The notes beneath the pieces were generated by a model. That model saw nothing but the letters and a program-made list of their open reading frames with translations, made no database searches and was not told the origin of the DNA. Positions 16,768 to 56,407 of a stretch of DNA of 64,000 nucleotides are shown piece after piece. This DNA comes from a bacterium (lineage in GTDB: Bacteria; CLD3; SB21). The stretch covers positions 19,530 through 83,529 of the forward strand of contig JABWCP010000012.1 in the NCBI GenBank assembly GCA_013360215.1, given 5' to 3'. A program made the position numbers and the translations under genes. Numbering within the stretch: the stretch's first letter is position 1; each line of letters begins with the position of its first letter.

Positions 16768-16789
16768 GGATCAGGCCCGCACGTGTTGG

Positions 16790-17227: not shown

Positions 17228-17248
17228 AATCCTGTCCGTGGAAAACGC

Positions 17249-17911
17249 TTATTCGGAAACTTTTTGAATACCGGGCGCTTTTTCTATTGCCTGCTCGATC
17301 AGATCCGCTGCCGCTTTTTGTTCTACGGTCAGCGTGATAATATCGTCATGCCACTTGGAAATAATTTTTCGATCATTTTTGCCCGTTACGATGCCAAACT
17401 TATACGTGCCTGATTTGGAAGCACGGCCTATCTTAGCCAGTTTGCGCATTATAAAACCCATACCGGCAGAGGTGCGTTTTCCGTTGGCAATGCCGTCTTC
17501 CATCAGAATCTCGCCCTGCGGTGACGATACCAGCACCGCGTTTACGCCGTTGATGGTTTTGATGTCACGGGTAAACTTGGCCATGGCTTCGCCTTTGGCT
17601 TCTAAGGCTTCATCAATCAGGCGAAGGCCTTCCATCATCAGATTGCCCCACGGTGCATTGATCGTACGCTTCGGTGAAGCAACACCGTTTTCGACTTTAA
17701 AAGGGCCTTCTTTGATAGCTAATATTTTATACACGGCATCTTCACCTTCTACAGCACCAAATGTCGCGTGTACGATATTACCTTCCGCAAAATAAATACG
17801 TCCGACCGCATTGCGTAATTCGACCGTAAACATCGCTTCGTTCTTTTCCATACAGTTCAGTTGAACGATGTTGGTCAATTTGAGATCTCTTAGATTTCCT
17901 ACAAGCGCCAC
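17249..17911 (-). CDS. DUF4388-roadblock fusion protein
   Basis: 220 residues. Residues 1-80 are a DUF4388 domain (GNLRDLKLTNIVQLNC, GRIYFAEGNIVHATFGAVEG, KEGPFKVENG); residues about 95-210 look like a roadblock domain (FTRDIKTINGVNAVLVSSPQGEIL split by a helix with FIMRKLAKIG, then ISKWHDDIITLTV). The fusion physically links the two domain types that are otherwise on separate proteins in this operon. The start is a GTG at 17911; the previous gene ends 17 bases before it. Likely cytoplasmic adaptor between the receiver protein and the GTPase, which is inference from operon position. Confidence 0.72.
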   Translation of the reverse strand: MALVGNLRDLKLTNIVQLNCMEKNEAMFTVELRNAVGRIYFAEGNIVHATFGAVEGEDAVYKILAIKEGPFKVENGVASPKRTINAPWGNLMMEGLRLIDEALEAKGEAMAKFTRDIKTINGVNAVLVSSPQGEILMEDGIANGKRTSAGMGFIMRKLAKIGRASKSGTYKFGIVTGKNDRKIISKWHDDIITLTVEQKAAADLIEQAIEKAPGIQKVSE

Positions 17912-35260: not shown

Positions 35261-35449
35261 CAAACGAATCATTTTATCGTTTATACAAGGAAAGACCCAT
35301 CATACAACCAACTCCGATCCGACCGGATTGAATTTTTAATAAAACGGCGGATCGCCACTCACTGTAGCGACCGAGTTTGAATTGGAAATCAAGTTGGCAA
35401 AGGCAGCATATCCATTTTGAATTACATATAAAAAAATCATAGTGTATTT

Positions 35450-38400
35450 ATGCAATCATGTCATCCTCTTAGAAGCCGTGTTCAAATAACCCTGATTTGG
35501 TTACATTGCCTTTTCGTCACCGGTTCCTTATACGCGCTGGATCCGGATCGGCGCGTGACACAATACATGCATACGATGTGGACGACCGATCAGGGGCTGC
35601 CACAAAATAATATTACCTCTATGATCCAAACGCGGGACGGCTATATCTGGTGTGGCACGTTGGATGGGCTTGTACGATTTGACGGTGTACGCTTTGAAGT
35701 TTTTGATAAGCGTAATACGCCGGCCATTCGCAATAATGCAATCATCACGATGTTCGAAGATCGCTCCGGTGGTTTGTGGGTAGGTACCATAGGCGGAGGC
35801 CTAGTGCATTATAAGAACGGAAAATTTATTTCTTACGGATTAACGGAGAAGTTCCCCAGTGCGTATATCTTGCATATGGCCGAAGACGAACAAGGGCGCT
35901 TGTGGTTCGCTACGCGCGACGGATTGGTCACTCGCGGCGATACGTCGTGGATTACCTATACGGCAAAAGAAGGTTTAACGCATACTTCCGTACGTTCGCT
36001 GTTTTTTGATCGTAAAGGACGGCTTTGGATCGGCTCTTCGGTCGGACTCAGTTTAATGGAAAACGGCGTGATTCGTAAAATTTTCGCGCACGAACTTGCC
36101 GACAAAAACGTCACTTCGATCACTTCCGACAGCACGGATATCATTTGGATTACGGTACTCGGCAAAGGCGTGTATCGTATCAAGGGAGATAGCATCGCAC
36201 ACTTGCAAGCACCCAAAAGTATTCCTCATAATTTTATCAATGCGATCGCTCGTGATAAAAACGGTAATCGCTGGTTGGCTACCGATGGCGGTCTCTATCG
36301 TGAACATCACGGACGCTTTGAACGATTTATGGATGAATCGAATTTTCCTCTCGACAAAGTCATGTGTCTGCTGGAAGATCGCGACGGCAATTTGTGGTTT
36401 GGCACCAACGGTAGCGGGCTTAACCGTCTGCGTGATGAAAAATTTATCACTTATACGACCCTTGAAGGTTTTAAAGACAACAGCGCCAACGTCGTATTCG
36501 AAGACAGCCGTGCTCGCATCTGGGTCGGTACCGAAGCCGGCGTTTCGATCATTGACGGCGATACGATCCGTAATCTCGGTGAATCCAGCGGACTGACCAA
36601 CACCAAAGTGCGTTCTTTTGCGGAAGATACAGACGGACGAATATGGGTCGGCACGCGCGAAGGTGTTTTTGTATGGAATGAGGTACGTTTCGAATCATGG
36701 AATGCGCGCCTCAAAATTCCACCCTTGGTCATTCTCTCCATGCTGCGCGCGCGCGACGGTACGATGTGGATCGGCACCGGCGGCGCTGGTGCGGTATCTT
36801 ACAAACCTCAAAACGTACAACAATATACCTCCAAACAAGGTTTAGCCGGCATCGTCGTGATCGCTATAGCGGAAGACTCGCTCGGGCGAATGTGGTTTGG
36901 CACCAATAGCGGACTGAGTCGCTTCGACGGAAAAAACTTTGTCACATACAATTCCAAAAACGGTATGTCATCTGATATTTTTTTATCTCTGTATGTGGAC
37001 AAAACCAATACGCTGTGGGCGGGTACATTTGGTAACGGACTCAACCGCTTACAAAACGACTCCATCGCCATATTTACGACGGCCGATGGTTTATTCAACG
37101 AAAACATGTATTCCATTCTGGAAGATGGCGAAGGTTATCTGTGGATGAGCTGCGGTAAGGGCGTGTTTCGCGTCGCCAAAGAAGATTTTGAACGATACCG
37201 TCAGAAAATAATACCCGTTATACCATGCAAAGTGTTTGGCCGCAGCGACGGTATGCGCAGCAGCGAATGCAATGGCACTACACAACCCGCCGCATGGATG
37301 ACCCGCGGCGGATGGCTTCTGTATCCGACCGGTAAAGGTCTTGCTGCCGTGAATCCGCGTTTGTTGTCGCGCGTTTCCCCGTCACCGCTGGTCGTCATTG
37401 AGCGCATGCTGGCTGAACAAAAACTCATCACCTTAGGTGAAAAAATCGAATTGACGCCGGGACACCGCCGTATCGAATTTACATTTACCGGTTTAAGTTT
37501 TACCGCTCCGGAAAACAACACATTTATGTACCGGCTTATCGGTTTTGATAAAGAATGGATCCAAGCCGAAAAAACTCGTCATGCCGTCTATACCAATGTA
37601 CCGCCCGGTGCATACCGCTTTGAGGTGATGGCTTCCAATAGCGACGGCATTTGGTCCTCGCAACCGGCGACAGTATTATTTTCAATTGATCCGTATTTTT
37701 TTGAGACCGTGTGGTTTTACAGTTTGTCCGGTGTATTCCTTTTGTATCTCGGTTTTACGTATTACCGTTCGCGTGTGCGCGAACTGCACGAACGTCAGGA
37801 AGAACTGACACGGCTTGTACAGGAACGCACACGTAATCTGCGCGAGGAAAAAGAAAAAACCGAACACGCGTTGCGGGAATCCGAGGAAGCTAAACGCGAG
37901 ATCGAAAAATCTCAGCAGGTCATTCAGTCGCAATCACAAAAATTGATCGAATTGGATAAAGTAAAAACCAATTTCTTTACCAATATTTCTCACGAATTTC
38001 GTACCCCGCTCACATTGATCATCGGACCTTTGGAAGATGTATTGCGATCCGCCACGCTTTCGGCCGATCAACGCGTTTCATTTGAACTCATGTTACGTCA
38101 AGCCAAGCAACTATTGGGTTTGATCAATCAACTTCTGGAGGCAGCCCGGCTTGAGTCCAATCGGGTTCAGTTTCATCCTTCACTTCGACCGCTGGTTCCT
38201 TTTGTTCGCGAACTGACTTCTATGTTTGAATCGGCGGCTCAGCGTAAAGGCATTCATCTTTCGCTGGAGACCTCCGACGAGAAAATACAATTGTACTATG
38301 ACCTTCATGCGATGGAACGCGTTTTGACAAATCTTATTTCTAATGCGATCAAGTTTACCGAGCAAGGGTTTATAAAAATTACGATCAAACATAGTGAACA

Positions 38401-39883
38401 TACGCATCGTCCGTCGGTTGTCATTTTTGTCGAAGACAGCGGACGCGGTATTCCGCAGGAACATCTCGGCCACATCTTTCAGCGTTTTTATCAAGCGGAC
38501 GGTGTCGAAGCCGATCAACTGGGGAGCGGAATAGGTCTTTCGCTGGTCCACGATTATGTGGAGATGCACCGCGGCTTGATCACTGTCGAAAGCACGGTCG
38601 GCAAAGGCACACGTTTTATGATAACGCTTTTTACCGGCGAAGAACATTTATCCGGTACGATCACACCTCATGCTGAAATAAAAACGGAGACCGAATTTAT
38701 TTACGCCCGTTCCATCGCCGCACTTTCATCCGAACATAACATTACTCCCGAAATATCAGCGCCGGATCCGACGGAGCGTCAAACGGCCGATAAGCCTAAG
38801 GTATTGATCGCCGATGATAACGCCGATATTCGTTTGTACTTATATAACCTCTTGCGGGACGAATACCGCATGATCATGGCGCACGACGGCGCCGCGGCGT
38901 TGGATTTGCTTCAACGGGAATTTCCGGATATGGTGCTCAGCGATGTGATGATGCCCAATATGGACGGAATGGAATTGTGCCGTCGTATCAAATCCGATGA
39001 ACGCACCCGCCACATTCCGGTCATACTGCTCACCGCACGCGCCGATGAATCCAGCAAAGTGGAAAGCCTCAATCTGGGTGCGGACGATTTTGTCGCCAAA
39101 CCATTTAGCGCTAATGAACTGAAAGCACGCATGCGCAATTTGCTCGGCATCCATGCCATGAAACTGCAGTTGATCGAACAAGAAAAAATGGCTTCTTTAG
39201 GACATCTTGCCCGCGGTGTCGCACATGAAATCAATAATCCGCTCTCCTTTGTAACAGGTAATCTTTCCGTTTTGGAATCACGGCTAGCCAAACTACATCC
39301 GGATGAGAATATTAAACCCATTGTCACCGATATCATGAGCGGAACCAAACGCATTGCCGCGATCGTGCAACACTTGCGTGAATTCACACGTCTGGATGAA
39401 GCCGAACGTAAATTCGTTGATCTGTCCGATATGGTGGATAACATTCTCACGCTCTTAGCCGGCGAAATGCAATCCGATATTCGCATCGAAAAAAATATCG
39501 CACAGGTGCCCATGATTGATTGTTTTCCGCGCGATCTCAATCAAGCGATAGCACAAATCCTTATGAACGCGACATATTATGTACGTGAACGCAACCGCAT
39601 TGAAAACCGGTCTCTTGGTCATATTACCATTCATCTGAACAAAACCGATGAGAAATATGTCGAACTTATCATAGAAAACGACGGCTTCCCGATTGCACCC
39701 GAAATTCGCGAACATATATTTGAACCCTTCTTTACGACCAAACCCATCGGCAAAGGTACCGGACTGGGCTTAAGCGCTGTTTACGGCATCATTCGCCGTC
39801 ACCACGGACAGATACGCTGCGTGTCGGAACCGTCCCAGCCGGTGCGCTTCATTATAATGTTACCGTTTGCAATACCGTCATAA
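35450..39883 (+). CDS. Propeller-type hybrid sensor with two kinase modules (HK-REC-HK)
   Basis: 1477 residues. After a signal peptide ending near LYALDP come the same two periplasmic propellers as in the preceding gene, a Y_Y_Y domain, one TM helix (about 757-775) and a coiled coil. The cytoplasmic part has three signalling units: kinase 1 with His848 (NISHEFRTPLT) and an ATPase domain (GSGIGLSLVHDY); a receiver with Asp1165 (LSDVMMPNMDG) and Lys in AKPF; then a second kinase with His1259 (RGVAHEINNPLSF) and a second ATPase domain (GTGLGLSAVYGI). A kinase placed after the receiver is rare and could be controlled by receiver phosphorylation. No DNA-binding domain. It is close enough in sequence to the upstream kinase to be a duplication. 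The next locus is the sulfur gene cluster. Confidence 0.9.
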   Translation: MQSCHPLRSRVQITLIWLHCLFVTGSLYALDPDRRVTQYMHTMWTTDQGLPQNNITSMIQTRDGYIWCGTLDGLVRFDGVRFEVFDKRNTPAIRNNAIITMFEDRSGGLWVGTIGGGLVHYKNGKFISYGLTEKFPSAYILHMAEDEQGRLWFATRDGLVTRGDTSWITYTAKEGLTHTSVRSLFFDRKGRLWIGSSVGLSLMENGVIRKIFAHELADKNVTSITSDSTDIIWITVLGKGVYRIKGDSIAHLQAPKSIPHNFINAIARDKNGNRWLATDGGLYREHHGRFERFMDESNFPLDKVMCLLEDRDGNLWFGTNGSGLNRLRDEKFITYTTLEGFKDNSANVVFEDSRARIWVGTEAGVSIIDGDTIRNLGESSGLTNTKVRSFAEDTDGRIWVGTREGVFVWNEVRFESWNARLKIPPLVILSMLRARDGTMWIGTGGAGAVSYKPQNVQQYTSKQGLAGIVVIAIAEDSLGRMWFGTNSGLSRFDGKNFVTYNSKNGMSSDIFLSLYVDKTNTLWAGTFGNGLNRLQNDSIAIFTTADGLFNENMYSILEDGEGYLWMSCGKGVFRVAKEDFERYRQKIIPVIPCKVFGRSDGMRSSECNGTTQPAAWMTRGGWLLYPTGKGLAAVNPRLLSRVSPSPLVVIERMLAEQKLITLGEKIELTPGHRRIEFTFTGLSFTAPENNTFMYRLIGFDKEWIQAEKTRHAVYTNVPPGAYRFEVMASNSDGIWSSQPATVLFSIDPYFFETVWFYSLSGVFLLYLGFTYYRSRVRELHERQEELTRLVQERTRNLREEKEKTEHALRESEEAKREIEKSQQVIQSQSQKLIELDKVKTNFFTNISHEFRTPLTLIIGPLEDVLRSATLSADQRVSFELMLRQAKQLLGLINQLLEAARLESNRVQFHPSLRPLVPFVRELTSMFESAAQRKGIHLSLETSDEKIQLYYDLHAMERVLTNLISNAIKFTEQGFIKITIKHSEHTHRPSVVIFVEDSGRGIPQEHLGHIFQRFYQADGVEADQLGSGIGLSLVHDYVEMHRGLITVESTVGKGTRFMITLFTGEEHLSGTITPHAEIKTETEFIYARSIAALSSEHNITPEISAPDPTERQTADKPKVLIADDNADIRLYLYNLLRDEYRMIMAHDGAAALDLLQREFPDMVLSDVMMPNMDGMELCRRIKSDERTRHIPVILLTARADESSKVESLNLGADDFVAKPFSANELKARMRNLLGIHAMKLQLIEQEKMASLGHLARGVAHEINNPLSFVTGNLSVLESRLAKLHPDENIKPIVTDIMSGTKRIAAIVQHLREFTRLDEAERKFVDLSDMVDNILTLLAGEMQSDIRIEKNIAQVPMIDCFPRDLNQAIAQILMNATYYVRERNRIENRSLGHITIHLNKTDEKYVELIIENDGFPIAPEIREHIFEPFFTTKPIGKGTGLGLSAVYGIIRRHHGQIRCVSEPSQPVRFIIMLPFAIPS

Positions 39884-41371: not shown

Positions 41372-43564
41372 ATGTTATCACGCAGACGTTTTTTAAAAAT
41401 CGGGGCCGGATTTACAGCCGGCGCAACCATCGCGGCCGGCGCCGCTCATACTTTGGCGGATCGTTTAGCCGCGTTGGAAAAACCTTCCGGACAAGTAGAA
41501 GTGATACCGACATATTGCGATATCTGTTTTTGGAAGTGCGGCGTTTTGGCGCATGTCAAAGAAGGTCAGCTGTGGAAACTGGAAGGTAATCCGGAAGATC
41601 CTCTTAGCCGCGGGCGCTTGTGTCCGCGCGGCACAGGCGGGGTCGGCGCACACTACGATCCGGATCGGCTGCGTACGCCCCTGATCCGCCGCGGCGAAAA
41701 AGGCGCCGAAGAATGGACCTCCGTCACATGGGATGAAGCGCTGGACTTCATCGCCGAAAAAATGAAAAAAATTAAAACCGAATACGGTCCGGAATCCGTG
41801 GCACTCTTTAGCCATGGCATCGGCGGTAATTTTTTTAAGCATACGATCAAAGCCTACGGCTCACCCAATATCGCGGCGCCTTCGTTTGCCCAATGCCGCG
41901 GTCCGCGGGATGTCGGATTTCGCCTCACCTTCGGTGAAGATGTAAGTTCACCCGAGCGCACCGACATCCGCAACGCCAAGTGTCTTGTTTTGATCGGATC
42001 GCATCTCGGCGAAAATATGCACAATACGCAGGTTCAGGAATTTGCCGAAGCCGTAGACAATCACGCGACGATCATCGTCGTGGATCCGCGCTATTCCGTC
42101 GCAGCCAGCAAAGCGCAGCATTATCTCCCGATCAAACCGGGTACCGATCTCGCGCTGATCTTGGCGTGGATGCATGTCATCATCAAAGAAAATCTTTATG
42201 ATAAAGCGTACGTCGAACAGTATGGTTTTGGTTTCGACGCATTGGTTGCGGCTTTGGAAACTTACACACCGGAGTGGGCATATCCTGAAACCGGCATTGA
42301 ACCGGAAACGATTCGCACTACCGCCCGCGTGATGGCACAATACAAACCTGCGACACTCGTGCATCCGGGACGCCACGTCACATGGTATGGGAATGATGCC
42401 CAACGCAGCCGTGGCATTGCTCTGCTTAACGCGTTGCTCGGCAGCTGGGGACGCAAAGGCGGTTTTTATACGCCGGTCAGTATGGATGTGCCGGCTTTCC
42501 CCTATCCCTCTTATCCCAAATCGGATAAAGGTAAAGTGGATAACCCCGGTCATAAATATCCCTTTGCGCACGAAACGATCACCACCGGCATACGCGAAGC
42601 GACACTCACCGGTAAACCTTATCCGATCAAAGGTTGGTTTGTGTACGCAACCAATCTGCTGCATGCTTTGCCTAATGAGGAAGAAACGATCAAGGCCATT
42701 CAGAATCTCGATCTGATGGTCGTGATTGATGTTATTCCCAGTGAAATCGCCGGCTGGGCCGATGTGATATTACCGGAGTCGGTGTATCTTGAGCGGCACG
42801 ACGATCTTAATGTCGAATGGTTCCGCGATCCGTTTGTGGCACTGCGCCAACCCGTCGTATCTGCCCCGCATGAGCAGAAGCCCAACTGGTGGATGGCCAA
42901 GCGTCTTGCCGAAAAACTCGGGCTCGGTCATTATTATCCGTGGACTCATATCGAATCGTATTTTGAAACGCGGCTTCGGCAGGCGGGATTGAGTTATGAA
43001 ACACTGAAAAAAAACGGAATCCTCCTCGGCGAAAAAAAACCGGTTTATTTCGATGAAGGCGTACCGGCCGAATTTCCCACGCCATCAGGAAAAATAGAAT
43101 TTTATTCATCCCAACTCGCAGAAGCCGGTTTTGAACCGGTACCCAAATATGTAGCCCCGCCTCAACCGCCACCGGGTTCATTTCGGCTTTTGTTTGGTCG
43201 TGCGCCGGTGCACTCGTTTAGCCGTACGCATACCAACCCCGTACTGATGGATATGATGAATGAAAACGAACTGTGGGTCAATGCGGACATGGCGTTACGG
43301 TACGGTTTAAAATCCGGCGATTATGTTCGTCTCAAAAATCAGGACGGTGTGGTCAGTACTAAAATCAAAATCAAAGCGACGGAACGCATTCGCACCGACT
43401 GCGTGTATATGGTGCACGGATTTGGGCATAACGCCAAAGCGCTCAAGCGCGCTTTCGGACGTGGTGCCAGCGATGCACAGCTTATCACACGCTACGATAC
43501 CGATCCCTTGATGGGCGGCACCGGTATGAATAATAATTTTGTCACTCTGGAAATGGAGGCTTAG
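41372..43564 (+). CDS. Molybdopterin oxidoreductase catalytic subunit (PsrA/PhsA type)
   Basis: 730 residues. The N-terminus is a Tat signal (LSRRRFLKIGAGF), so the enzyme is exported folded to the periplasm. A 4Fe-4S site is formed by Cys49, Cys52, Cys56 and Cys84 (CDICFWKC, RGRLCPRG). Cys175 (FAQCRGPRD) is placed as the ligand of molybdenum. The length and layout match polysulfide, thiosulfate and tetrathionate reductases and related sulfur dehydrogenases of the DMSO reductase family. With the following FeS and NrfD-type genes it forms a membrane complex exchanging electrons with quinone. Direction (reduction or oxidation) and substrate cannot be set from sequence. The adjacent YeeE pair and rhodanese argue for a sulfur compound. 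Confidence 0.9.
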   Translation: MLSRRRFLKIGAGFTAGATIAAGAAHTLADRLAALEKPSGQVEVIPTYCDICFWKCGVLAHVKEGQLWKLEGNPEDPLSRGRLCPRGTGGVGAHYDPDRLRTPLIRRGEKGAEEWTSVTWDEALDFIAEKMKKIKTEYGPESVALFSHGIGGNFFKHTIKAYGSPNIAAPSFAQCRGPRDVGFRLTFGEDVSSPERTDIRNAKCLVLIGSHLGENMHNTQVQEFAEAVDNHATIIVVDPRYSVAASKAQHYLPIKPGTDLALILAWMHVIIKENLYDKAYVEQYGFGFDALVAALETYTPEWAYPETGIEPETIRTTARVMAQYKPATLVHPGRHVTWYGNDAQRSRGIALLNALLGSWGRKGGFYTPVSMDVPAFPYPSYPKSDKGKVDNPGHKYPFAHETITTGIREATLTGKPYPIKGWFVYATNLLHALPNEEETIKAIQNLDLMVVIDVIPSEIAGWADVILPESVYLERHDDLNVEWFRDPFVALRQPVVSAPHEQKPNWWMAKRLAEKLGLGHYYPWTHIESYFETRLRQAGLSYETLKKNGILLGEKKPVYFDEGVPAEFPTPSGKIEFYSSQLAEAGFEPVPKYVAPPQPPPGSFRLLFGRAPVHSFSRTHTNPVLMDMMNENELWVNADMALRYGLKSGDYVRLKNQDGVVSTKIKIKATERIRTDCVYMVHGFGHNAKALKRAFGRGASDAQLITRYDTDPLMGGTGMNNNFVTLEMEA

Positions 43565-43566
43565 CC

Positions 43567-44106
43567 ATGGCGCGTCTCGCAATGGTCATAGATACCCGAA
43601 AATGCGTCGGATGTATGGATTGTGTCGTGGCCTGCAAAACTGAAAATCAGGTTCCCGAAGGATACAATCGCGACTGGATCACGACCGAAGCCAAAGGAAA
43701 GTTTCCCGACGTGCGTCTCGAAATTCGATCCGAACGTTGTAATCACTGTTCCAATCCACCGTGTGTGACATGCTGCCCTACCGGTGCGAGTCATGTGCAT
43801 GACTATGGCGGCGTCGTGCTGGTCGATCATGATGTATGTATCGGCTGCAAAGCATGCGTCGCATCGTGTCCGTATGATGCGCGTTTTGTTCATCCCGAAG
43901 GTTATGTGGACAAATGTACATTCTGCATTCATCGCGTGGAAAAAGGACTTGAGCCGGCTTGCGTGTCCGTTTGCCCTACGCATTGTATGTACTTTGGCGA
44001 TCTGGATGACCCTAATAGTAAAGTTTCTCAACTTCTGCAGAAACGCGGTTACCATACGAATTTACCGGAAGCCGGTACGCAACCGAATATTTTTTATCTC
44101 ACGTGA
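43567..44106 (+). CDS. Four-cluster ferredoxin subunit (PsrB/PhsB type)
   Basis: 179 residues. Four cysteine groups for four 4Fe-4S clusters are present: CVGCMDCVVAC, CNHCSNPPCVTCC, CIGCKACVASC with CPYD, and CTFCIHRV with ACVSVCPTHC. No signal peptide: like other PsrB subunits it should be carried across the membrane by the Tat-exported partner. It passes electrons between the molybdenum subunit and the NrfD-type quinone subunit. GGAGG precedes the ATG, which begins two bases after the catalytic subunit's stop. Confidence 0.93.
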   Translation: MARLAMVIDTRKCVGCMDCVVACKTENQVPEGYNRDWITTEAKGKFPDVRLEIRSERCNHCSNPPCVTCCPTGASHVHDYGGVVLVDHDVCIGCKACVASCPYDARFVHPEGYVDKCTFCIHRVEKGLEPACVSVCPTHCMYFGDLDDPNSKVSQLLQKRGYHTNLPEAGTQPNIFYLT

Positions 44107-44113
44107 GGACGCT

Positions 44114-45055
44114 ATGAACGAATTGACACATACGCGCATGAATCCGATGATTGATCCCGCGCTGCACATTTGGGGCTGGGAAATCCCCGTGTATCTTTTT
44201 CTTGGCGGATTGGTGGCAGGGTTTATGATTTTGTCCGGTTATTTTACGCTTAAAGGCCATCATAAACATGATCACTTCTCTTCTTTTTATTTACCGCATG
44301 TGAGTTTGGCCTTACTGAGCCTCGGTATGTTTTCCTTATTTCTCGATCTTGAGCACAAGCCTTATGTATGGCGTCTTTATACGACATTTGAAATCACTTC
44401 GCCGATGTCCTGGGGATCTTGGATTTTACTGTTAGTCTATCCTTCGTTACTTCTCAATACGTTGGTGCGCATTCCGGAGGCTTTTAGTAACCGCATTCAT
44501 CTGTTTGATAAATTTTCGGAACGCATCCATGCGCATCCTTATCTCATCAAAAACATCGGTGTTCTCAATATGATCGTGGGTGCGATATTGGGGATATACA
44601 CGGGTGTTCTCTTAAGCGGGCTGGCGGCACGGCCGTTGTGGAATAGCTCTATGCTATGGATACTTTTTCTCACGTCCGGAATATCCGCCGCGGCAGCTTT
44701 CGTTCACCTCGTCACGACAGATTCTGTCGAACGAGAGATTTCAGCGAAAGCGGATAATGCATTTTTGATTTTTGAATTGTTTGTAATCACGCTGTTCATC
44801 GTAGGTATGTTGAGTTCCGCACAAGCGCAACAAACCGCAGCAAGGCTGATATTAAACGGTCCTTACGCTGCGGTATTCTGGGTATTTGTGGTCGGTTGCG
44901 GCATCATCATTCCTTTGATCATCCAACTGCTGGCGGTCAATCATAAAATACAACATACGCCGATAGCGCCGATCATGGTGATGCTGGGCGGGCTCATTTT
45001 ACGATTTGTTATCGTATATGCCGGGCAGGCTTCACACTGGACTATTGTACACTAA
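44114..45055 (+). CDS. NrfD/PsrC-type membrane quinone subunit
   Basis: 313 residues with about eight or nine TM helices, starting WGWEIPVYLFLGGLVAGF, which is the conserved quinone-pocket segment of NrfD/PsrC proteins. It anchors the molybdoenzyme and exchanges electrons with the quinone pool. The ATG at 44114 is chosen because it follows the ferredoxin stop by 7 bases with GAGG upstream; the same frame is open much further upstream, but that region overlaps the ferredoxin gene and is not membrane-like. Confidence 0.9.
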   Translation: MNELTHTRMNPMIDPALHIWGWEIPVYLFLGGLVAGFMILSGYFTLKGHHKHDHFSSFYLPHVSLALLSLGMFSLFLDLEHKPYVWRLYTTFEITSPMSWGSWILLLVYPSLLLNTLVRIPEAFSNRIHLFDKFSERIHAHPYLIKNIGVLNMIVGAILGIYTGVLLSGLAARPLWNSSMLWILFLTSGISAAAAFVHLVTTDSVEREISAKADNAFLIFELFVITLFIVGMLSSAQAQQTAARLILNGPYAAVFWVFVVGCGIIIPLIIQLLAVNHKIQHTPIAPIMVMLGGLILRFVIVYAGQASHWTIVH

Positions 45056-45072
45056 TATTCGGAGAGTAATCT

Positions 45073-45630
45073 ATGGCATCTTCAGAAGAACATTTTAATG
45101 AACATCGCGCCATGAAGCTACCGCAGCCGTACTGGAATCCATATCTGTCCGGCATCGGCCTCGGGTTGGTTTTGCTAGCGTCGTATCTGATCATGGGGCG
45201 TGGACTTGGCGCATCGGGTGCGTTTACTACGACGACGGCCGTTACTGTGAATGCCGTAGCGCCGGAGTATGCACACCAAAATACGTTTTACAGCGAATAC
45301 CTCGGTGACGGCACACGCAGTCCGCTCAAAGATTGGTTAGTTTTTGAAGTGCTCGGCGTTTTTGTCGGCGGATTGGTTTCCGGTCTTCTGGCCGGACGTA
45401 TCAAAAAATCCGTCGAAAAAGGCCCGCGCATTTCCGTCCGATCACGCCTCTTGTTTGCTTTTGCAGGCGGCATGCTGATGGGCATTGGTGCAAAACTTGC
45501 TCGGGGTTGCACGAGCGGGCAAGCCTTGACCGGCGGCGCCGTGCTTAATCTCGGAAGCTGGGCATTTATGCTGATGGTATTCGCCGGCGCTTACGGACTG
45601 GCTTATTTTTTGAGGAGGCAATGGACATGA
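45073..45630 (+). CDS. YeeE/YedE-family half transporter, first member
   Basis: 185 residues with about four TM helices. The signature is ARGCTSGQALTGGAVLNLGS near the C-terminus, with the single conserved cysteine of the GCTSG loop. YeeE/YedE (TsuA) proteins pass thiosulfate across the inner membrane through chains of cysteines; in several bacteria the transporter is split into two half-length proteins, as here. Its stop overlaps the start of the second half (ATGA). Located behind the PsrABC-type genes with 17 bases between, so it belongs to the same operon. Confidence 0.88.
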   Translation: MASSEEHFNEHRAMKLPQPYWNPYLSGIGLGLVLLASYLIMGRGLGASGAFTTTTAVTVNAVAPEYAHQNTFYSEYLGDGTRSPLKDWLVFEVLGVFVGGLVSGLLAGRIKKSVEKGPRISVRSRLLFAFAGGMLMGIGAKLARGCTSGQALTGGAVLNLGSWAFMLMVFAGAYGLAYFLRRQWT

Positions 45631-46226
45631 ACGCACCTTTTTTCAAATATGGATTATTCGGTGACGAAGCGAGCCTGATCGTGGCTTTTATCATCGGTAT
45701 CGGGTTTGGTTTTTTTCTTGAACGCGCCGGATTTGGCAGCGGTGTAAAACTCGCTGCACAGTTTTATTTTTATGATATGAGCGTACTCAAAGTCATGTTT
45801 AGTGCGATCGTGACGGCCATGCTGGGCGTATATTGGTTCTCATGGTTTGGCTTGCTTGATCTCGATCTGATTTATATCAATCCCACATTTCTTCTTCCGC
45901 AAATCGTCGGAGGCCTTCTGCTTGGGTTCGGATTTGTGATCGGCGGATATTGTCCGGGCACTTCGGTCGTGGCGTGTTCGACAGGACGAATGGACGCGAT
46001 GGTTTATGTGGCCGGTATTTTCGGAGGAATTTTTACGTTCGGATTTATTTTTCCTTACGTCGAATCGTTTTATACAGCGACGCCGATGGGTGCGATCACT
46101 CTGCCGCAATGGCTCAATCTGCCGTACGGCACCGTCGTATTTCTTGTCGTTGTCATGGCGATCGGCGCATTTGCCGCCGCCGAGTGGGGCGAGAGAAAAA
46201 TGGCCTCCCAAGGAGGTGCATCGTGA
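45627..46226 (+). CDS. YeeE/YedE-family half transporter, second member
   Basis: 199 residues from the ATG at 45627. This start is preferred to the ATG at 45621 because GAGGAGG ends 8 bases before it and it overlaps the upstream stop as ATGA. About five TM helices. The conserved cysteine is in the GGYCPGTSVVA loop, and a first half-motif LERAGFGSGVKLA is near the N-terminus. Together with the preceding gene it should form a complete thiosulfate- or sulfur-compound-conducting unit. The stop overlaps the GTG start of the rhodanese gene, so transporter and rhodanese are made together. Confidence 0.88.
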   Translation: MNAPFFKYGLFGDEASLIVAFIIGIGFGFFLERAGFGSGVKLAAQFYFYDMSVLKVMFSAIVTAMLGVYWFSWFGLLDLDLIYINPTFLLPQIVGGLLLGFGFVIGGYCPGTSVVACSTGRMDAMVYVAGIFGGIFTFGFIFPYVESFYTATPMGAITLPQWLNLPYGTVVFLVVVMAIGAFAAAEWGERKMASQGGAS

Positions 46227-46876
46227 AAAACCGATGGCGTGATCTCACGTTAACGCAGAAGCTCGGCGTCGTCGCGATGCTGCTCGGTTTATTGGCATTG
46301 ATCGGCGGTACGCCGCAACGCGGTTCTTTTTATACGATAGACAGCAAAGCCATGCTGATGGACGTCGCTAAAGAGACCGATCACATCGCCGTGGAAACAT
46401 TGGCCGACTGGATCATTCAAGGCCGCTCGGATTACAGACTGCTGGATATCCGCGACGCCAAAGCGTTCGAGACGTACCACATTCCTTCAGCCGAATCCGT
46501 GCCGCTCGCCGAACTCCATCAGGCCGAATTGCGCCGTAACGAAAAAATTATTTTCTACTCCGATGGCGGTATTCATGCTTCGCAGGCGTGGTTTGTACTC
46601 AAAGCCCGCGGCTACAATGGAGTATATATGCTGCGGGGTGGACTGGAAGAATGGCAGGATCGTATTTTGTATCCGCACAAGCCATCAAAAAACGATACGG
46701 AATCCCTGAGGCAGTTTGAAAAGTCCGCGGCGGTTGCCAAATTTTTTGGCGGCGAAGCACAAGGCGAACAATCTACCGCGGCCGTCAAATCAGTGGCGAC
46801 ACCGATGCCCAAAGCCCCTGCGGGCGCTAAAGCCGTCGCACCTAAAACCGGAAAAAAGAAAAAAGAAGGATGTTGA
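46223..46876 (+). CDS. Membrane-anchored rhodanese-like protein lacking the catalytic cysteine
   Basis: 217 residues from GTG 46223 (AGGAGG 6 bases upstream, overlap GTGA with the YeeE stop). One TM helix or uncleaved signal lies at about 14-28, then a rhodanese domain at about 55-150 (LLDIRDAKAFETYHIPSA, MLRGGLEEWQ). The active-site loop reads FYSDGGIHAS: Ser113 stands where the persulfide-forming cysteine should be. The tail (about 155-217) is low-complexity, Ala/Pro/Lys-rich, and ends KKKKEGC. Cys217, the last residue, is the only cysteine in the whole protein. The protein probably sits in the inner membrane with its domain in the periplasm. It may bind sulfur compounds without classical sulfurtransferase activity, or use Cys217 as a mobile carrier. 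Confidence 0.85.
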   Translation: MKNRWRDLTLTQKLGVVAMLLGLLALIGGTPQRGSFYTIDSKAMLMDVAKETDHIAVETLADWIIQGRSDYRLLDIRDAKAFETYHIPSAESVPLAELHQAELRRNEKIIFYSDGGIHASQAWFVLKARGYNGVYMLRGGLEEWQDRILYPHKPSKNDTESLRQFEKSAAVAKFFGGEAQGEQSTAAVKSVATPMPKAPAGAKAVAPKTGKKKKEGC

Positions 46877-49186: not shown

Positions 49187-49220
49187 AAAAAAAACCTCCG
49201 CGCTTACGGAGGTTTTTTTT
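49187..49220. terminator. Bidirectional terminator
   Basis: AACCTCCG / CGGAGGTT stem with 6-base loop, eight As before and eight Ts after. Lies between convergent transcripts. Confidence 0.9.
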
Positions 49221-49346: not shown

Positions 49347-51125
49347 CTAAGTAAAGCTTTCCATTCCAAGATCCATGGCTTCTTCGATCGCAAAAGTCGG
49401 CGGTGGAAGTTGGCGTATCATGGTTTCTTGCAGCATCAGCGCTTTGATTTGATTGGAAACGCGCGACGACTGGTGATCACTGAGCGCATACAGGAAAAGC
49501 TCTAACGCACGGCTAGCATTCTTTTTGATTTTTACTACGTCTTTATCGTTGATCGTCATGAGTTCCTGGATTTCGGCATTGCCCGCAAAATTGGCTAATA
49601 TTCGATCCGGATTGCTGACCATAGCTTGTGCCTTTTTATATACGATCTTGGCTACTTCGAGGTATTGTCCCAATAATTGATCATCTTCCGTACGCCCCAA
49701 AAGATCAACACCGACTTTGAGGGAATACATACGATCTAGAAATTCACGTATCAATGCGCCGCGAATCAACGATCCGTGTTGCGGAGCGATCATCACCGGC
49801 CCCGGATCAAGCTTACGTATCTGATCAATGGCAAATTGAATCGCTTTATTGGCCGGCATGTAGAGTTCGTGGAATGCGCGCATTCCGTCCCAATGGCTTT
49901 CATCGGCCCACAAACCGTAATTGTCCGTACCGGTAAGTCCTCCGAATAAATCACCGGAGAAAAGAATGCGGGATTCGATATCGTACACCATTACGGCACC
50001 GCGAAAATGACAATACGGCGTAGGAATAAATTGTAACGTATGCCCGGTCGGAAGATTGGTCTGCCAGTTGGTCAATTTATCGGTAAGAATCAAACGTTCT
50101 TTATTAATACCAAAGCTGGACACGAGCCGCCACGTGTCTTCCGATGTAAGGCAAATAGCTTTAGGGTTGGCCGACTTGAGGAAAAACGTATTGGAAGCTA
50201 CATCGGGATCCTGATGATTGAGGCTGTATAAATTGACCTTGGACACATCACCGATCACTTCGCCGATTTTTCCGGAAATCGTCGTATAGTCAATCGTCGG
50301 TCCGGGATCAACCAAAAAATTGACCTTATTGTTATACACGCGCAAAAAAGGATTAATCTGAAGAATACGCGATTCTTTTCTGTCGCCGACAAAATAAATA
50401 TCTTCGGCAATCGCTATAGGTTTAGAAAAATCCTCACTTTTCATCGCGTTTCCTTCCTTCGTTGAGTGCACCGATACCGGCATTTTGTTTTCGCTTTCGG
50501 TTAATTCAGAGGGGCGCCGTGCGAGATAATATGAACCGCTGCTCCACTGCAGCATCGTCTCCAGCGCTTCCGAGTCTTTTAATTCACCGCATACGATCGT
50601 TTCGCATACACCGCGATTAAACTCGATCGAGCCGACACCATGATCGCTCTGGATAGTTAAAATTCCGTGAACCCCTTCTTTTTCCGCCGACGCGATGAGT
50701 TCTTCGATTTTTCCGAGCACGAGCGAACCGCTTCGCAGAATACCGCTGGACCGTTGGGCGTCCACAAATCGAAACAATGCCTGAATTTTCAAAAACAACA
50801 AATTCAGATTGATCGGTTTTGGTAAAAAATCAATGGCTCCCATTTGAATGGCTTTGGCCGTCAATGACGGATCTTTGTCGCCCGACATCAGCAGAAACGG
50901 TATGGACGCAAGACGCGGTTGTCTGCGAACGGCTTCGATAAAACCGAATCCGTCCAGTTCCGGCATCATAATGTCCGATATGATCAAATCCGGTGATTGA
51001 CCGGCCAGGATTGTAAGTGCCGCTTTGCCGTTTAACGCTGTCACTACCGAATAACCGGATTGCCCCAAAGCCAAACTTAAAGCGTCTACGGAAGTTCTTT
51101 CATCGTCCACAATCAATATCGTCAT
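49347..51125 (-). CDS. Response regulator: receiver, DUF4388 and diiron-type metallo-beta-lactamase domain
   Basis: 592 residues. Receiver (1-120): Asp7/Asp8, phospho-acceptor Asp51 (ISDIMMPELDG), Lys103 (LPKP). DUF4388 domain (about 131-205): GILTIQSDHGVGSIEFNRG, LQWSSGSYYL. The third domain (about 235-480) is of the metallo-beta-lactamase fold in its flavodiiron/ODP form: LNHQDPD gives His304, Asp306 and Asp308; His373 (PYCHFRG), Asp392 (SGDLFGG) and His450 (PQHGS) complete the ligand set. The 19-residue step from His373 to Asp392 equals that of flavodiiron enzymes. There is no flavodoxin domain, so this is likely a diiron sensor of oxygen or NO rather than a reductase. Residues about 480-592 are helical. 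It is 29 bases after the giant kinase gene, so the two form a kinase-regulator pair. Confidence 0.85.
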   Translation of the reverse strand: MTILIVDDERTSVDALSLALGQSGYSVVTALNGKAALTILAGQSPDLIISDIMMPELDGFGFIEAVRRQPRLASIPFLLMSGDKDPSLTAKAIQMGAIDFLPKPINLNLLFLKIQALFRFVDAQRSSGILRSGSLVLGKIEELIASAEKEGVHGILTIQSDHGVGSIEFNRGVCETIVCGELKDSEALETMLQWSSGSYYLARRPSELTESENKMPVSVHSTKEGNAMKSEDFSKPIAIAEDIYFVGDRKESRILQINPFLRVYNNKVNFLVDPGPTIDYTTISGKIGEVIGDVSKVNLYSLNHQDPDVASNTFFLKSANPKAICLTSEDTWRLVSSFGINKERLILTDKLTNWQTNLPTGHTLQFIPTPYCHFRGAVMVYDIESRILFSGDLFGGLTGTDNYGLWADESHWDGMRAFHELYMPANKAIQFAIDQIRKLDPGPVMIAPQHGSLIRGALIREFLDRMYSLKVGVDLLGRTEDDQLLGQYLEVAKIVYKKAQAMVSNPDRILANFAGNAEIQELMTINDKDVVKIKKNASRALELFLYALSDHQSSRVSNQIKALMLQETMIRQLPPPTFAIEEAMDLGMESFT

Positions 51126-51154
51126 TTAAAAAAACCTTTCCGTTAATATGAAAA

Positions 51155-54100
51155 TTAGGACTGCTCACCGGAACGTAACGGTGCGAGTACATCGTTCAAC
51201 GTTTGAAGTATTTTTTCAGCGCGGTATGGTTTCATCAAAAAGGCCTGCACTTTGAATCCGTTTTTCTGAATGGATTTTTCATTTTCCGGAAGACCGCTCA
51301 TGGCGATGATGGGGATATCTTCACGAATACTGCGCAACATGCGAATAAACGCATGACCGTCCATGTGTGGCATGCTTATATCGGTTATCACGGCACGAAT
51401 GGATGCCATTTGGGCGGCGAATACCGTCATCGCTTTTCCGCCGTCCTCGGCTTCGACTATTTGGTATCCGTGATGCGTCAGGATCGTCCCCAATATTTTG
51501 CGTATGGCCGGCTCATCATCTACGATCAGGATCAATTCACCACGACCCCATAACGATTCCGGAACACGAGATTCAACCGATTCCGTGTGGAAACCGGCGC
51601 TGGCGGGGATGTAAATTTTAAACTGTGTGCCTTTACCGACCTCACTATACACGCTCACAAAGCCGCCATGCCCTTTGATAATCGCCGCAACCGTGGATAG
51701 TCCCAAACCTGTACCGTGTTCGAGGTCCTTGGTTGTAAAAAACGGATCAAAGATATGATCTATGATATCCGAAGGAATCCCCAGTCCTGTATCCGTAACT
51801 GTAAACAGAACGTACGGGCCGGGTTTAGCCTGATGTTCCTTGTAGACATACGCCTCATCAAAAATTACATTTTCGACGTGGATCGTCAGGTCACCTCCGG
51901 AAGGCATGGCATCGCGCGCATTGACACACAGATTGAGAAATACTTGATGAAGCTGCGTGCTATCGGCCGTGATCGGATACAGACCTTTGGCTACGTTGCA
52001 GGCAATTCTTATGTTTTTAGGAAACGTTGAAACAAGGATACGCTCAATTTCCTCAATCGTTTTTTTGGCATCCACGGCATGATGCGCCCCTTCTGCACCG
52101 CGCGAAAACATAAGGAGTTTACGCATCAGATCGGCAGCCCGTTCTATATTAGATTCCAGCATGACGATCAGACGTTGACTCGTATCATCCGATAATTTGG
52201 ATTTGAACATTTGAACAGCCATCAAAATCGGCGATAAAATATTATTAAGATCATGCGCGATACCGCTGGCCATACGGCCGATGCTTTCCATGCGCTGCGC
52301 TCTAAAATACTGTTTCTCAAGTCGTTTACGTTCAGTAACGTCGGTCTCGATATACAAAAATGATTTGACCGCGCTGTCCGCATCCCGCACAGGACTCTTG
52401 CGGCATTCGACGATGACACTTCTTCCGTCCCGCGTATAGTGCTCGATCTCACCGCTCCACGCCTCGTTGCCGCTGAATAGTGAACGTACCACAGCATCCG
52501 TCGCGCGGGTATGCCCGAGAACTTCCGTCGCTTGATGGCCGATGACATTGGTTTTTTCCCAGCCATACAACGTTTCGCATTGACTGTTCCAATACACTAT
52601 CCGCCCATCCGGATCGGTCATAAAAATCGCATCCCGCGCATTATCGAGGATCATCGCTTGCTCTTGGATGATCTCGTTGGCTTTTTTATGAAATGTGATA
52701 TCCCGACCGATCACGACCAATCCCAGCCGTGTTCCGTTCTCTTGCAACAGAGGAATCTTGGTCGTATCATAATGCAATAAATCACCGCCGGGTTTTTCGA
52801 TAATTTCTATGGTTTGATACCGTTGCCCTGTCTGCCAAGCCAACTCATCCGTACCGATGCACCCCTCGTACAGCGAACGCAAAGCGGGAAAAGCTTCAGC
52901 TAGCTGCCGGTCCGTTTTCCCGTACCAAGGATACGCCGTCAATTCAAAAAGTTTGAGCACGGCGGGATTGGCGATCAACCATCGCCCGTTCCCGTCTTTG
53001 AATAATACGGCATCCGGTATCGCTTCGACTAATGTTTCAAATTCACGCAACGTTTCGCTCAATTTGACTTCGGCCTGTTCGCGTTCCGACGATAGGCGAT
53101 GTTTGAGCAGCGCCAATTCGATTTCCCGCGATACGCTGTCGAGAAAATTCAGTTCTTCCTCCTGCCATTGGCGCGGACGGATCATATCATTGACAACCAA
53201 AAGGAAAAAACCATCCTCCCGAAATGAGAACGGATACCAAAGCAAACTCTGTACTTTCATGACACGATGCAATATTTCGGCAGATCCTTCCTCGACAAAA
53301 CATGCGTGCGGTGCATCAACCGTACTCGTGATGCAGGTTCGTGTGCTATGCAGCCGGCTAATACTGGACGCAAATACGGACGAGGGATACACCTCCTGAG
53401 GCGGGGCAAAATCGGAAAAATCCGGGCGAATCCATTTGGCAATAGAAACGGCTTCGCCGGCCGCCATGCGTATATCAAATAACAGCGCGCGTTCTATATC
53501 AATCGTTTCACCGCAAATGGTCGTCATTTCCCGCAACAACGTATCGGCTGTACCGTCCGAATTCATAATCGATGTCGCCATACGATTGAGTGCACGGGCG
53601 TAGCGTAGTTGCTCACGGATATGGTTTTCATATTTACGACGGCTTCGGTTATCGCGTCCGATACATACGATGACCGGCGTTCCCGATGACACGGCCTTAC
53701 TTGTGCGCACATCAAAGGGAATCGCTTCACCGTTTAGGTGAATAAAATCCATTTCGCGCGACGCGGCGCCGTTTTCATGGCCTGTGCCACCGGTGAGGTA
53801 CGATATCGCGTCATAATCCGCATTACCGGGTAAAATCGAACTGATCATTTTCCCGGCCAATGCGCCTTGCGCATATCCGAGATTTTGTTCTACGGCCGGA
53901 TTAGCATAGATGATGTAGCCGTTGTTCTCAAACAACAAAACCATATCCTGGGATGTCTCGGCGAGCGTGCGGTATTTTTGCTCACTGTGAAGCAACGCTT
54001 CCTCGGCGTTATGCCGTTCGGTGACATCTTTAAAATTAACGACGATCGCCTGAACTTCCGGCGCCTGAAGTAAATTAGTAAACGTACTTTCGATCCATTT

Positions 54101-56407
54101 CCATGACCCGTCTTTATGCTTGAAGCGATACATCGCCCGTGCGTCAATATCCGGATTTTCGATCACGGATAAGATAAGCTGTACGACACGCTCGACATCA
54201 TCCGGATGGGTCATTGCGGCGGGATCCAGATCGGACAACTCCGACATTTCGTATCCGAACATGCGCGCCGAAGAAGGACTGATGTATTGAAATTTTCCTT
54301 CGACATTGATCAATACCACACCGTCCGGTGCACGTTCGATGAGGGCCTGAAAATGTTTCTCTACGCGACGGCGCTCCGAAATATCCCTTACTATACCCTG
54401 AATACGTCCGTCATCAAGCATTTTGGCGCTGATTTCAACTTCGACATGTGTCCCGTCTTTGCGGACTAAACGCCGATGCGATAAAATTGATTGACCCTTT
54501 TCCAATTGTCTGATTTTGAGCGGTTGGCGGATTAATTCTTCCGCATCCAACAAACCGTAAAAAGGTTTCTTCAACAATTCGTTTACAGTATATCCCATTA
54601 AACGGCAACCGGCGGGATTGACATCTTCGATTTGTCCGTCACGGGTAGCTACAAAAATACCGTCCGCGGCCTGATCAATCAACGTACGATACCGCTTTTC
54701 ACTGGCACGCAACGAATCTTCCGCCGTTTGACGTACCATCTGTGATAACAAACGATCTATCGTCGCCGACATATGACTCGCTAAAGTCGTGAGATATTGA
54801 AGGGCGGATTCATCCGGCACACGCACCCCTTCATCATCATAGGTTCCCATACCGATGGATGCTAAGCGCCCTTCGGAAAGATGAACCGGTATATTTACGA
54901 TCGTACGCACCCCGGTAGATTGTACGATTTTTTTATTGGTTCGTACATCCTCCGCCGCATCGGGAATAACCACCGCACCCGCTCCCCGAGCCACTGCACT
55001 AAGCATCGCATCATTTTTGATATCAAGGCGTTTAGGTGCAAACGGTCTTGACATGCCGGCCTCGGCCAATACTTCTGCTTCAGAGCGATCATTCGAAAAA
55101 ACGTACACCCATAATCTCTGATATCCCACCAGGCGTTGCACTTCGTTTAATGCTGCCTGAGCCGCTTCATCGAAACCCGCGACACGCTCCAGCTGACGCG
55201 CTAATCGCAAAAGTGATTCCGCCTGTGATTCTTTTTGCCTGAGCGCCAGCTCGGCCAGTTTACGTTCGGTAATATCGCGATTGCTTCCCCGAATACCTCG
55301 AAAAACGCCGGTGGCGTCGGAAATAGGCTGACAGACATGGCCAATCCATTTGATAGTGCCGTCTTTACAGACAATACGAAAATCCAGATTACCCGGTAAA
55401 CGCCGCTGCTGAATATCTTGCTGGTGAGCTAAAAAAGCCGCGCGGTCTTCGGCATATACGATGCGTTGCAGAAAATCACGATCCGTCGTAAAAGAAACCG
55501 GCGAATATCCCGTGATACGCTCGCACGACGGCGAACTGTAAATGTAGGATCCGTCCGTATCCAGCCAAAACTCCCAATCAAATGTATTATCCGCGATGAT
55601 CTGATATTTGATTTCGTTTTGCTTTAATTGATTTTGTGCTTGCCGCGTTTCGTTTTCCGAACGAATTTTTCCGCTGATATCTTTCCAAATGCCGATAAAA
55701 TGCGTTATCTCTCCGTTTTCGTCACGGACCGGAGATATCGTATGCTCGACGGGTATGATGCTGCCGTCTTTTCGGCGATTATATTGAATATTTCGAAATA
55801 CGCTCCCCGATAAAATTTTTTCCCACATTCCGGTATAAAAAGCCTGCTCATGGTAACCGGATTTTAATATTCGCGGATTCTTTCCCAGTACTTCATCACG
55901 CCCGTATCCGGAATTTTTTTCAAACCCACCATTCACATAGAGAATATTACCATCTTTATCGGTTATGATAACAGCGTCATCCGTTGACTCCACCGCTCTT
56001 AAGAATAAATCCGATGCAATGGAATTATCATATTGCTTCGGCCAGTGTGATGTCGGCGATAGAAACGATAGAACATTTTTTTTAGTAAAAGGAAGAGGGA
56101 TAACTTCATCCGACTTCAGCACACCCTCTTTCACGAGCCGTTTTCCTTGGGCCGCAGGCAAAGCAAACCCAACACGCAAATTCGCCGCGTGCATCATTTT
56201 CTTTTTTAAGACAAGCGCAGAAGCTATTCCACGGTAGGTTGTAGTTAGGATGGCCGATGAAGGTCGGATTTGTGTGACTTTACGCAGCGCATTCCGATCG
56301 GTTACAGAGACAACCTCCCGTTGCGTGAGGGCGGCCAAAGCGGACGCCTGCGTCGTGCTGCCCAATAATAACACTATTTGCGTATGTGATTTACCCGCTT
56401 TATTCAC
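51155..56407 (-). CDS. Giant cytoplasmic PAS/GAF hybrid histidine kinase
   Basis: 1750 residues with no TM segment. The first 125 residues resemble a degenerate receiver. Then in order: PAS, PAS, GAF, PAS, PAS, PAS, GAF, PAS, PAS (seven PAS and two GAF by motif), a HisKA domain with His1385 (GIAHDLNNILSP), an HATPase domain (FFTTKDLEHGTGLGL) and a C-terminal receiver with Asp1676 (ITDISMPHMDG) and Lys in MKPY. The HisKA/HATPase style is NtrB-like. Many PAS domains allow heme, flavin or small-ligand sensing; none can be assigned by eye. The partner gene follows at 29 bases. Its C-terminal receiver could donate phosphate to a phosphotransfer protein or act as a sink. Confidence 0.9.
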   Translation of the reverse strand: MNKAGKSHTQIVLLLGSTTQASALAALTQREVVSVTDRNALRKVTQIRPSSAILTTTYRGIASALVLKKKMMHAANLRVGFALPAAQGKRLVKEGVLKSDEVIPLPFTKKNVLSFLSPTSHWPKQYDNSIASDLFLRAVESTDDAVIITDKDGNILYVNGGFEKNSGYGRDEVLGKNPRILKSGYHEQAFYTGMWEKILSGSVFRNIQYNRRKDGSIIPVEHTISPVRDENGEITHFIGIWKDISGKIRSENETRQAQNQLKQNEIKYQIIADNTFDWEFWLDTDGSYIYSSPSCERITGYSPVSFTTDRDFLQRIVYAEDRAAFLAHQQDIQQRRLPGNLDFRIVCKDGTIKWIGHVCQPISDATGVFRGIRGSNRDITERKLAELALRQKESQAESLLRLARQLERVAGFDEAAQAALNEVQRLVGYQRLWVYVFSNDRSEAEVLAEAGMSRPFAPKRLDIKNDAMLSAVARGAGAVVIPDAAEDVRTNKKIVQSTGVRTIVNIPVHLSEGRLASIGMGTYDDEGVRVPDESALQYLTTLASHMSATIDRLLSQMVRQTAEDSLRASEKRYRTLIDQAADGIFVATRDGQIEDVNPAGCRLMGYTVNELLKKPFYGLLDAEELIRQPLKIRQLEKGQSILSHRRLVRKDGTHVEVEISAKMLDDGRIQGIVRDISERRRVEKHFQALIERAPDGVVLINVEGKFQYISPSSARMFGYEMSELSDLDPAAMTHPDDVERVVQLILSVIENPDIDARAMYRFKHKDGSWKWIESTFTNLLQAPEVQAIVVNFKDVTERHNAEEALLHSEQKYRTLAETSQDMVLLFENNGYIIYANPAVEQNLGYAQGALAGKMISSILPGNADYDAISYLTGGTGHENGAASREMDFIHLNGEAIPFDVRTSKAVSSGTPVIVCIGRDNRSRRKYENHIREQLRYARALNRMATSIMNSDGTADTLLREMTTICGETIDIERALLFDIRMAAGEAVSIAKWIRPDFSDFAPPQEVYPSSVFASSISRLHSTRTCITSTVDAPHACFVEEGSAEILHRVMKVQSLLWYPFSFREDGFFLLVVNDMIRPRQWQEEELNFLDSVSREIELALLKHRLSSEREQAEVKLSETLREFETLVEAIPDAVLFKDGNGRWLIANPAVLKLFELTAYPWYGKTDRQLAEAFPALRSLYEGCIGTDELAWQTGQRYQTIEIIEKPGGDLLHYDTTKIPLLQENGTRLGLVVIGRDITFHKKANEIIQEQAMILDNARDAIFMTDPDGRIVYWNSQCETLYGWEKTNVIGHQATEVLGHTRATDAVVRSLFSGNEAWSGEIEHYTRDGRSVIVECRKSPVRDADSAVKSFLYIETDVTERKRLEKQYFRAQRMESIGRMASGIAHDLNNILSPILMAVQMFKSKLSDDTSQRLIVMLESNIERAADLMRKLLMFSRGAEGAHHAVDAKKTIEEIERILVSTFPKNIRIACNVAKGLYPITADSTQLHQVFLNLCVNARDAMPSGGDLTIHVENVIFDEAYVYKEHQAKPGPYVLFTVTDTGLGIPSDIIDHIFDPFFTTKDLEHGTGLGLSTVAAIIKGHGGFVSVYSEVGKGTQFKIYIPASAGFHTESVESRVPESLWGRGELILIVDDEPAIRKILGTILTHHGYQIVEAEDGGKAMTVFAAQMASIRAVITDISMPHMDGHAFIRMLRSIREDIPIIAMSGLPENEKSIQKNGFKVQAFLMKPYRAEKILQTLNDVLAPLRSGEQS

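Follow-up and report, generated by a model that had tools for sequence, protein, structure and literature searches.

What does a response regulator sense, and by which part, when a diiron-type domain lies behind its receiver? One such protein is encoded in the 64,000-nucleotide stretch of bacterial DNA analysed here (the window). A preliminary description, made from the sequence alone, had read it as a candidate O2- or NO-sensing regulator with a flavodiiron-like output domain.

Domain Organization of the Regulator

The gene lies where it was first placed, at positions 49,347 to 51,125, and is on the minus strand (51125→49347), which had been left unstated. It is a complete ORF of 592 aa with the order REC-DUF4388-ODP-tail, ODP standing for oxygen-binding diiron protein. 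The full-length AlphaFold model, built from a 44-row alignment, has a mean pLDDT of 89 and is confident in the receiver, the helix that follows it, the DUF4388-like domain, the ODP and the tail. Confidence is low for residues 209–227 and 580–592, which are probably disordered, and the pTM is low as well (0.55), so that the relative placement of the domains is not to be interpreted.

The receiver (residues 1–122; 50,760–51,125, minus strand) is matched by Pfam with E 5e-25 and by receiver structures with Z of 22–23. Asp51, already pointed out as the phospho-acceptor, is in place together with Asp8/Glu9, Ser81 and Lys103, the residues by which the receiver of a response regulator is recognized. 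In the model, a long helix (residues 107–127) links it to the DUF4388-like domain (residues 129–203; 50,517–50,741, minus strand). The earlier assignment of this second domain to DUF4388 (PF14332) stands in part: the match of the 592-aa protein itself is weak (20.6 bits, E 5e-4) and below the Pfam gathering cut-off of 25, but homologues in which REC-DUF4388 is a separate gene score above that cut-off, and the predicted fold of residues 129–203 is confident. Next come the ODP domain (residues 236–477; 49,695–50,420, minus strand) and a C-terminal helical tail (residues 482–570; 49,416–49,682, minus strand; pLDDT about 90), which amounts to some 100 aa beyond the ODP and had been overlooked, as had Gln449. 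Nearly all of the ODP subfamily has this tail, extending about 97–128 aa past the ODP in most homologues and further in a few. No DNA-binding or catalytic output domain was recognized in the 592-aa regulator.

Identity of the Third Domain and Its Predicted Metal Site

By profile match and predicted fold, the third domain is a member of the oxygen-binding diiron protein family. Residues 255–451 are matched by Pfam ODP (PF19583) with E 5e-52 (177 bits against a gathering cut-off of 27.2). Among PDB sequences the best matches are 6qrq/6qwo (30% identity to 6qwo) and 6qnm/6r9n, all of them oxygen-binding diiron proteins. ODPs also head the structural matches of the model, with Z of 31.2 to 6qwo_A (zinc form) and 29.9 to 6r9n_A (peroxy diiron form). 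Structure prediction had been proposed as a check, and residues 236–477 are predicted to fold like ODPs (Z 27–31) and like flavodiiron proteins (Z 28–29, some less than one Z unit from 6r9n). The domain is more than flavodiiron-like; it is an ODP proper.

All seven predicted ligand residues are present. The motif H304-Q-D306-P-D308, followed by Val309 (50,202–50,216, minus strand), has ligand columns that are invariant in 27 aligned homologues and is shared with both solved ODPs. His373 (50,007–50,009, minus strand) and Asp392, at the expected bridging position (49,950–49,952, minus strand), also fall in invariant columns of the homologue alignment, as do Gln449 and His450 in the motif PQHG (49,776–49,781, minus strand). 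Apart from Gln449, these residues had been located exactly, and the spacing of 19 between His373 and Asp392 was the same on recounting. Flavodiiron proteins also have this His-Asp spacing of 19 residues. The alignment and the fold match together point to a site that would bring the seven residues together.

Asp306 and Val309 had been taken as deviations that might alter the ligand chemistry, a view that does not hold. The ODP chemotaxis sensors of T. denticola (TDE2498) and T. maritima (6qrq, 6qwo, 6qnm, 6r9n), which have the same fold (Z 27–31), carry identical ligand residues (HQDPDV ... H ... D ... PQHG), and we rejected unusual ligands as a novelty, the set HxDxD(V/L/I), H, D, QH being normal in ODPs. 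Gln449 is likely to be an extra ligand in place of the absent His; PMC7785958 describes a Gln ligand of ODP at the position that reads PQHG here. The Treponema ODP is stand-alone and has a chemoreceptor partner, whereas the 592-aa regulator adds a receiver, a DUF4388-like domain and the helical tail.

A metallo-beta-lactamase fold, flavodiiron relatives that are reductases and an ODP crystallized with zinc would suit an enzymatic output, i.e., an oxygen or NO reductase controlled by phosphorylation, or a zinc hydrolase. We consider this very improbable. Flavodiiron proteins (ROO, FprA, Flv) have the core fold in common with the regulator (Z 28–29) but join it to a flavodoxin domain and an HxExDH motif, whereas the regulator has HxDxDV, with Gln449 for the missing His. 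Pfam finds neither flavodoxin, as had been noted before, nor rubredoxin, and the helical tail occupies the place of the former. A flavodiiron reductase was rejected on the absence of the C-terminal flavodoxin domain and on HQDPDV in place of HxExDH; a zinc metallo-beta-lactamase hydrolase was rejected on HQDPDV in place of the HxHxDH zinc motif, the ligand set with Gln449 being that of ODPs.

Gene Neighbourhood and a Putative Kinase Partner

Directly upstream of the regulator, on the same strand and with 29 nt between, lies a gene whose Pfam matches describe a soluble hybrid histidine kinase of 1750 aa (51,155–56,407, minus strand), with multiple PAS domains, GAF, HisKA (His1385), HATPase and a C-terminal receiver (Asp1676); no strongly hydrophobic segment was seen in it. 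Reading of the sequence also gave a Shine-Dalgarno-like GGAAAGG 9 nt before the regulator ATG (51,135–51,141, minus strand) and, downstream of the regulator, an intrinsic-terminator-like hairpin, CCTCCG-6-CGGAGG-T8 (49,187–49,212, minus strand). Kinase and regulator look like a two-gene operon. It is by adjacency that we name the kinase as putative phosphodonor of the regulator. Phosphotransfer from a hybrid kinase to a separate receiver often needs an Hpt protein, and none linking the two was identified. Two strong matches to heme-copper oxidases are present in the source genome; therefore, O2 is probably physiologically relevant to the organism.

Other genes in the surroundings deserve mention in their own right. 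Two DUF4388 proteins (267 and 220 aa) are encoded nearby (15,964–17,911, minus strand), and a total of 11 DUF4388 matches in the source genome exceed the cut-off. At 41,372–46,876 (plus strand) there follow in series a molybdopterin oxidoreductase, a 4Fe-4S subunit, a membrane protein, two Sulf_transp (YeeE-like) proteins and a rhodanese-looking ORF, the membrane and rhodanese-looking ORFs being outside the Pfam scan; this cluster may be a sulfur-compound reductase with sulfur transport. Just upstream of it and of a FadL-like porin are two large adjacent Reg_prop/Y_Y_Y (two-component-regulator-propeller) histidine kinases (32,063–39,883, plus strand), the second of which is a hybrid.

ODP Relatives in Other Signalling Contexts

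A scan of named genomes for relatives gave 31 loci, and the ODP subfamily, mostly with its tail, appeared in many settings. Myxococcota, other former deltaproteobacteria and an acidobacterium have fusions in which a Ser/Thr kinase precedes the ODP. At the Myxococcaceae loci examined (L106–L108, L123 and most of L080–L105), the ODP gene stands alone and adjoins one for a Ser/Thr kinase in the same orientation; in Myxococcota outside this family the two are in one protein. In Fermentibacteria the ODP follows HEAT-like repeats, with an HD-type gene and a CHASE2-cyclase gene close by, and more distant ODPs are fused to GGDEF or to nucleotide cyclase domains (L037:1501-3141, L040:1513-3135). In one Coatesbacteria genome, a rubrerythrin/ferritin-like gene (L013:4792-5292) is directly upstream of a stand-alone ODP, a possible link to oxidative stress.

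Closer to the window protein in composition are the Desulfobulbaceae, including cable bacteria, in which the ODP is next to a REC-DUF4388 gene. In cable bacteria and relatives (L005, L006, L009, L011, L012 and L019), a gene of the size of REC-DUF4388 directly follows the ODP and was confirmed as REC-DUF4388 in L005, L009 and L019; in L005, a universal stress protein gene precedes the ODP. It is possible that the two form an O2-sensing pair in these organisms, which live across an oxygen gradient. A split locus of Calditrichota holds together a REC-DUF4388-like gene, a small protein, the ODP, a weakly V4R-like protein and a PAS hybrid kinase. The protein between ODP and hybrid kinase has about 408 aa (L016:3327-4550, with the weak V4R match, and L017:3234-4454). 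The window protein thus joins parts that are neighbouring genes elsewhere.

In these other contexts the ODP, judged by its gene partners, usually appears to be the sensing part. Coupled as it is to Ser/Thr kinases, GGDEF domains, nucleotide cyclases and a chemoreceptor, it was probably wrongly called an output domain. We see it as a widely shared sensor module, which adjoins a Ser/Thr kinase gene at the Myxococcaceae loci examined and a REC-DUF4388 gene in cable bacteria; no experimental work on either pair was found in the literature searched. That ODPs occur in operons with signalling domains or fused to them is already reported in PMC7319448, citing Muok et al. 2019.

A Fusion Family of Probable Single Origin

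The order receiver-DUF4388-metallo-beta-lactamase, which was to be sought in other genomes, was found by profile search in 21 of 40 Calditrichota genomes. The Calditrichota proteins (G351/G588, probably Caldithrix, and others) have the same domain order, 578–611 aa and form one clade. No such fusion appeared among the best 30 of 71 matches in 193 genomes of the Myxococcaceae phylum (probably Myxococcota), in 247 genomes of the Desulfobulbaceae phylum (that of L005) or in other sampled genomes of the window organism's family; a broad sample of 386, the window's own class included, gave only the window itself and one Caldithrix-like genome. Outside Calditrichota, the only receiver-fused ODP found in the genomes sampled is that of the window.

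In an unrooted maximum-likelihood tree of 55 ODP domains, calculated with the ligand columns excluded, a branch with support 98/92 separates the 21 fused proteins (window plus 20 from Calditrichota) from the rest, so that a single fusion event suffices. The window copy is the fused branch nearest to the unfused ODPs and would be the deepest if the fusion is taken as derived. From these relationships it is most likely that the architecture arose once, by fusion of genes still neighbouring elsewhere. ODPs fused to signalling domains in general are known, but a single-origin receiver-DUF4388-ODP family appears to be new: neither the receiver-DUF4388 partner nor ligand loss after fusion was found in the literature searched, although the PNAS 2019 ODP paper may list receiver fusions.

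Loss of the Metal Site in Calditrichota

Conservation in homologues had been proposed as a test of the metal site, and the outcome is divided: unfused relatives keep the site, but most receiver-fused relatives of Calditrichota lost it. The seven ligand positions read HDDHDQH in 34/34 ODPs of the tree that are not fused to a receiver, whereas 17/20 fused Calditrichota copies have lost one to seven ligand residues. Three copies are intact (L137, L138, L150), two lack one ligand, four lack three or four, and eleven lack six or seven; on the tree, at least two changes are required. Some of the unfused proteins were retrieved by peptide patterns that included the ligand motifs, which biases the unfused set toward intact copies. 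The profile-search set, in which all unfused rows are intact, and the stand-alone Calditrichota copies of a permissive search are free of this bias, the latter comparison leaving out one short match (G593:C126, 265 aa); stringent thresholds, as in the 193- and 247-genome searches among others, could hide decayed stand-alone copies.

The switch itself did not decay with the site. Receiver phosphorylation residues are retained in essentially all fused relatives, and Glu9, Asp51 and Lys103 are invariant in the eleven most decayed copies. Mean receiver identity to the window protein is 40% both in these eleven and in intact copies; for the ODP, identity drops from 50% in intact copies to 36%. The eleven vary at the ligand columns roughly as much as at an average ODP column, while 24 other ODP positions are fixed. 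The decayed copies are mostly not pseudogenes, because their ORFs are full length; as receiver and fold-core residues are conserved across many genomes, we rejected pseudogenes or assembly artefacts as an unlikely explanation. One decayed relative, L153, has an in-frame TAG within the matched frame. With the site lost so often, a metal-independent role of the fold is likely within the receiver-fused family.

The ligand loss in most fused relatives means that the architecture can do without the metal, which could be vestigial in the window copy too. The window protein would then be a phospho-switch only, its ODP fold a structural or interaction module and its ligands a relic not yet decayed. 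The 17 of 20 relatives that lost ligands while keeping receiver residues and fold-core positions favour this, and recurrent loss of the metal site is the strongest reason for caution about use of the site in the window copy. However, that copy, unlike all but three of the Calditrichota ones, retains all seven ligands although its branch is long, at 0.6 changes per column, and its ODP is about as close to unfused ODPs as those of intact fused relatives are. Both would be expected if selection had continued to act on the site, and we regard a purely metal-independent switch as unlikely for the window protein.

Proposed Function

We favour, with modest confidence, a cytosolic response regulator that does not bind DNA and would combine two inputs, phosphorylation by a kinase and O2 or iron at the ODP, read out through protein contacts. 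The multi-PAS hybrid kinase would phosphorylate Asp51, directly or through a phosphotransfer protein. Independently, the ODP would bind two irons via His304, Asp306, Asp308, His373, Asp392, Gln449 and His450, and would change conformation upon formation of an O2 peroxo adduct or loss of iron, by analogy with what is described for ODP. The combined state may be read out by protein–protein contacts of the DUF4388-like domain, the helical tail or both; such a readout is the most likely because no DNA-binding or enzymatic output domain was recognized. PATAN receiver proteins act by binding other proteins, e.g., the pilus motor PilB1 in cyanobacteria, according to PMC7690835. We offer them as an analogy of protein-binding output only, with no identity of domains implied. 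Counting against two inputs are the missing ligands of most receiver-fused relatives.

As to what the site would report, O2 sensing, one part of the O2/NO-sensing role first suggested, is the leading reading given the ODP family, the full ligand set, the absence of flavodoxin and a functional-looking receiver; NO has no specific support. NO chemistry is known in the flavodiiron relatives of ODP. This would agree with a site that reports Fe(II) availability or NO/peroxide, with O2 only a by-product, as would a published ODP whose title names it an Fe(II) and oxygen sensor (cited in PMC7785958). No sequence feature here separates O2, Fe(II) and NO/peroxide, and the adjacent genes scanned with Pfam show nothing iron- or NO-specific; we give such an iron or redox sensor a low probability.

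Under the two-input reading, the fusion would have arisen once, the window copy keeping the full site, while in Calditrichota the site would have decayed in stages and the phospho-switch stayed. We tentatively extend this to the whole series, at somewhat short of even chances: after its fusion to a phospho-switch, a diiron gas sensor may have been freed from its metal stepwise, with kinase input replacing the gas and the fold staying as a signalling module, and the window protein may be a surviving dual-input form near the ancestral state. The fusion family suggests that a switch can outlive the gas sensor fused to it. It offers a graded set of one sensor domain on one switch, from intact to fully ligand-free, which lets one ask whether phosphorylation can substitute for ligand binding over the same output.
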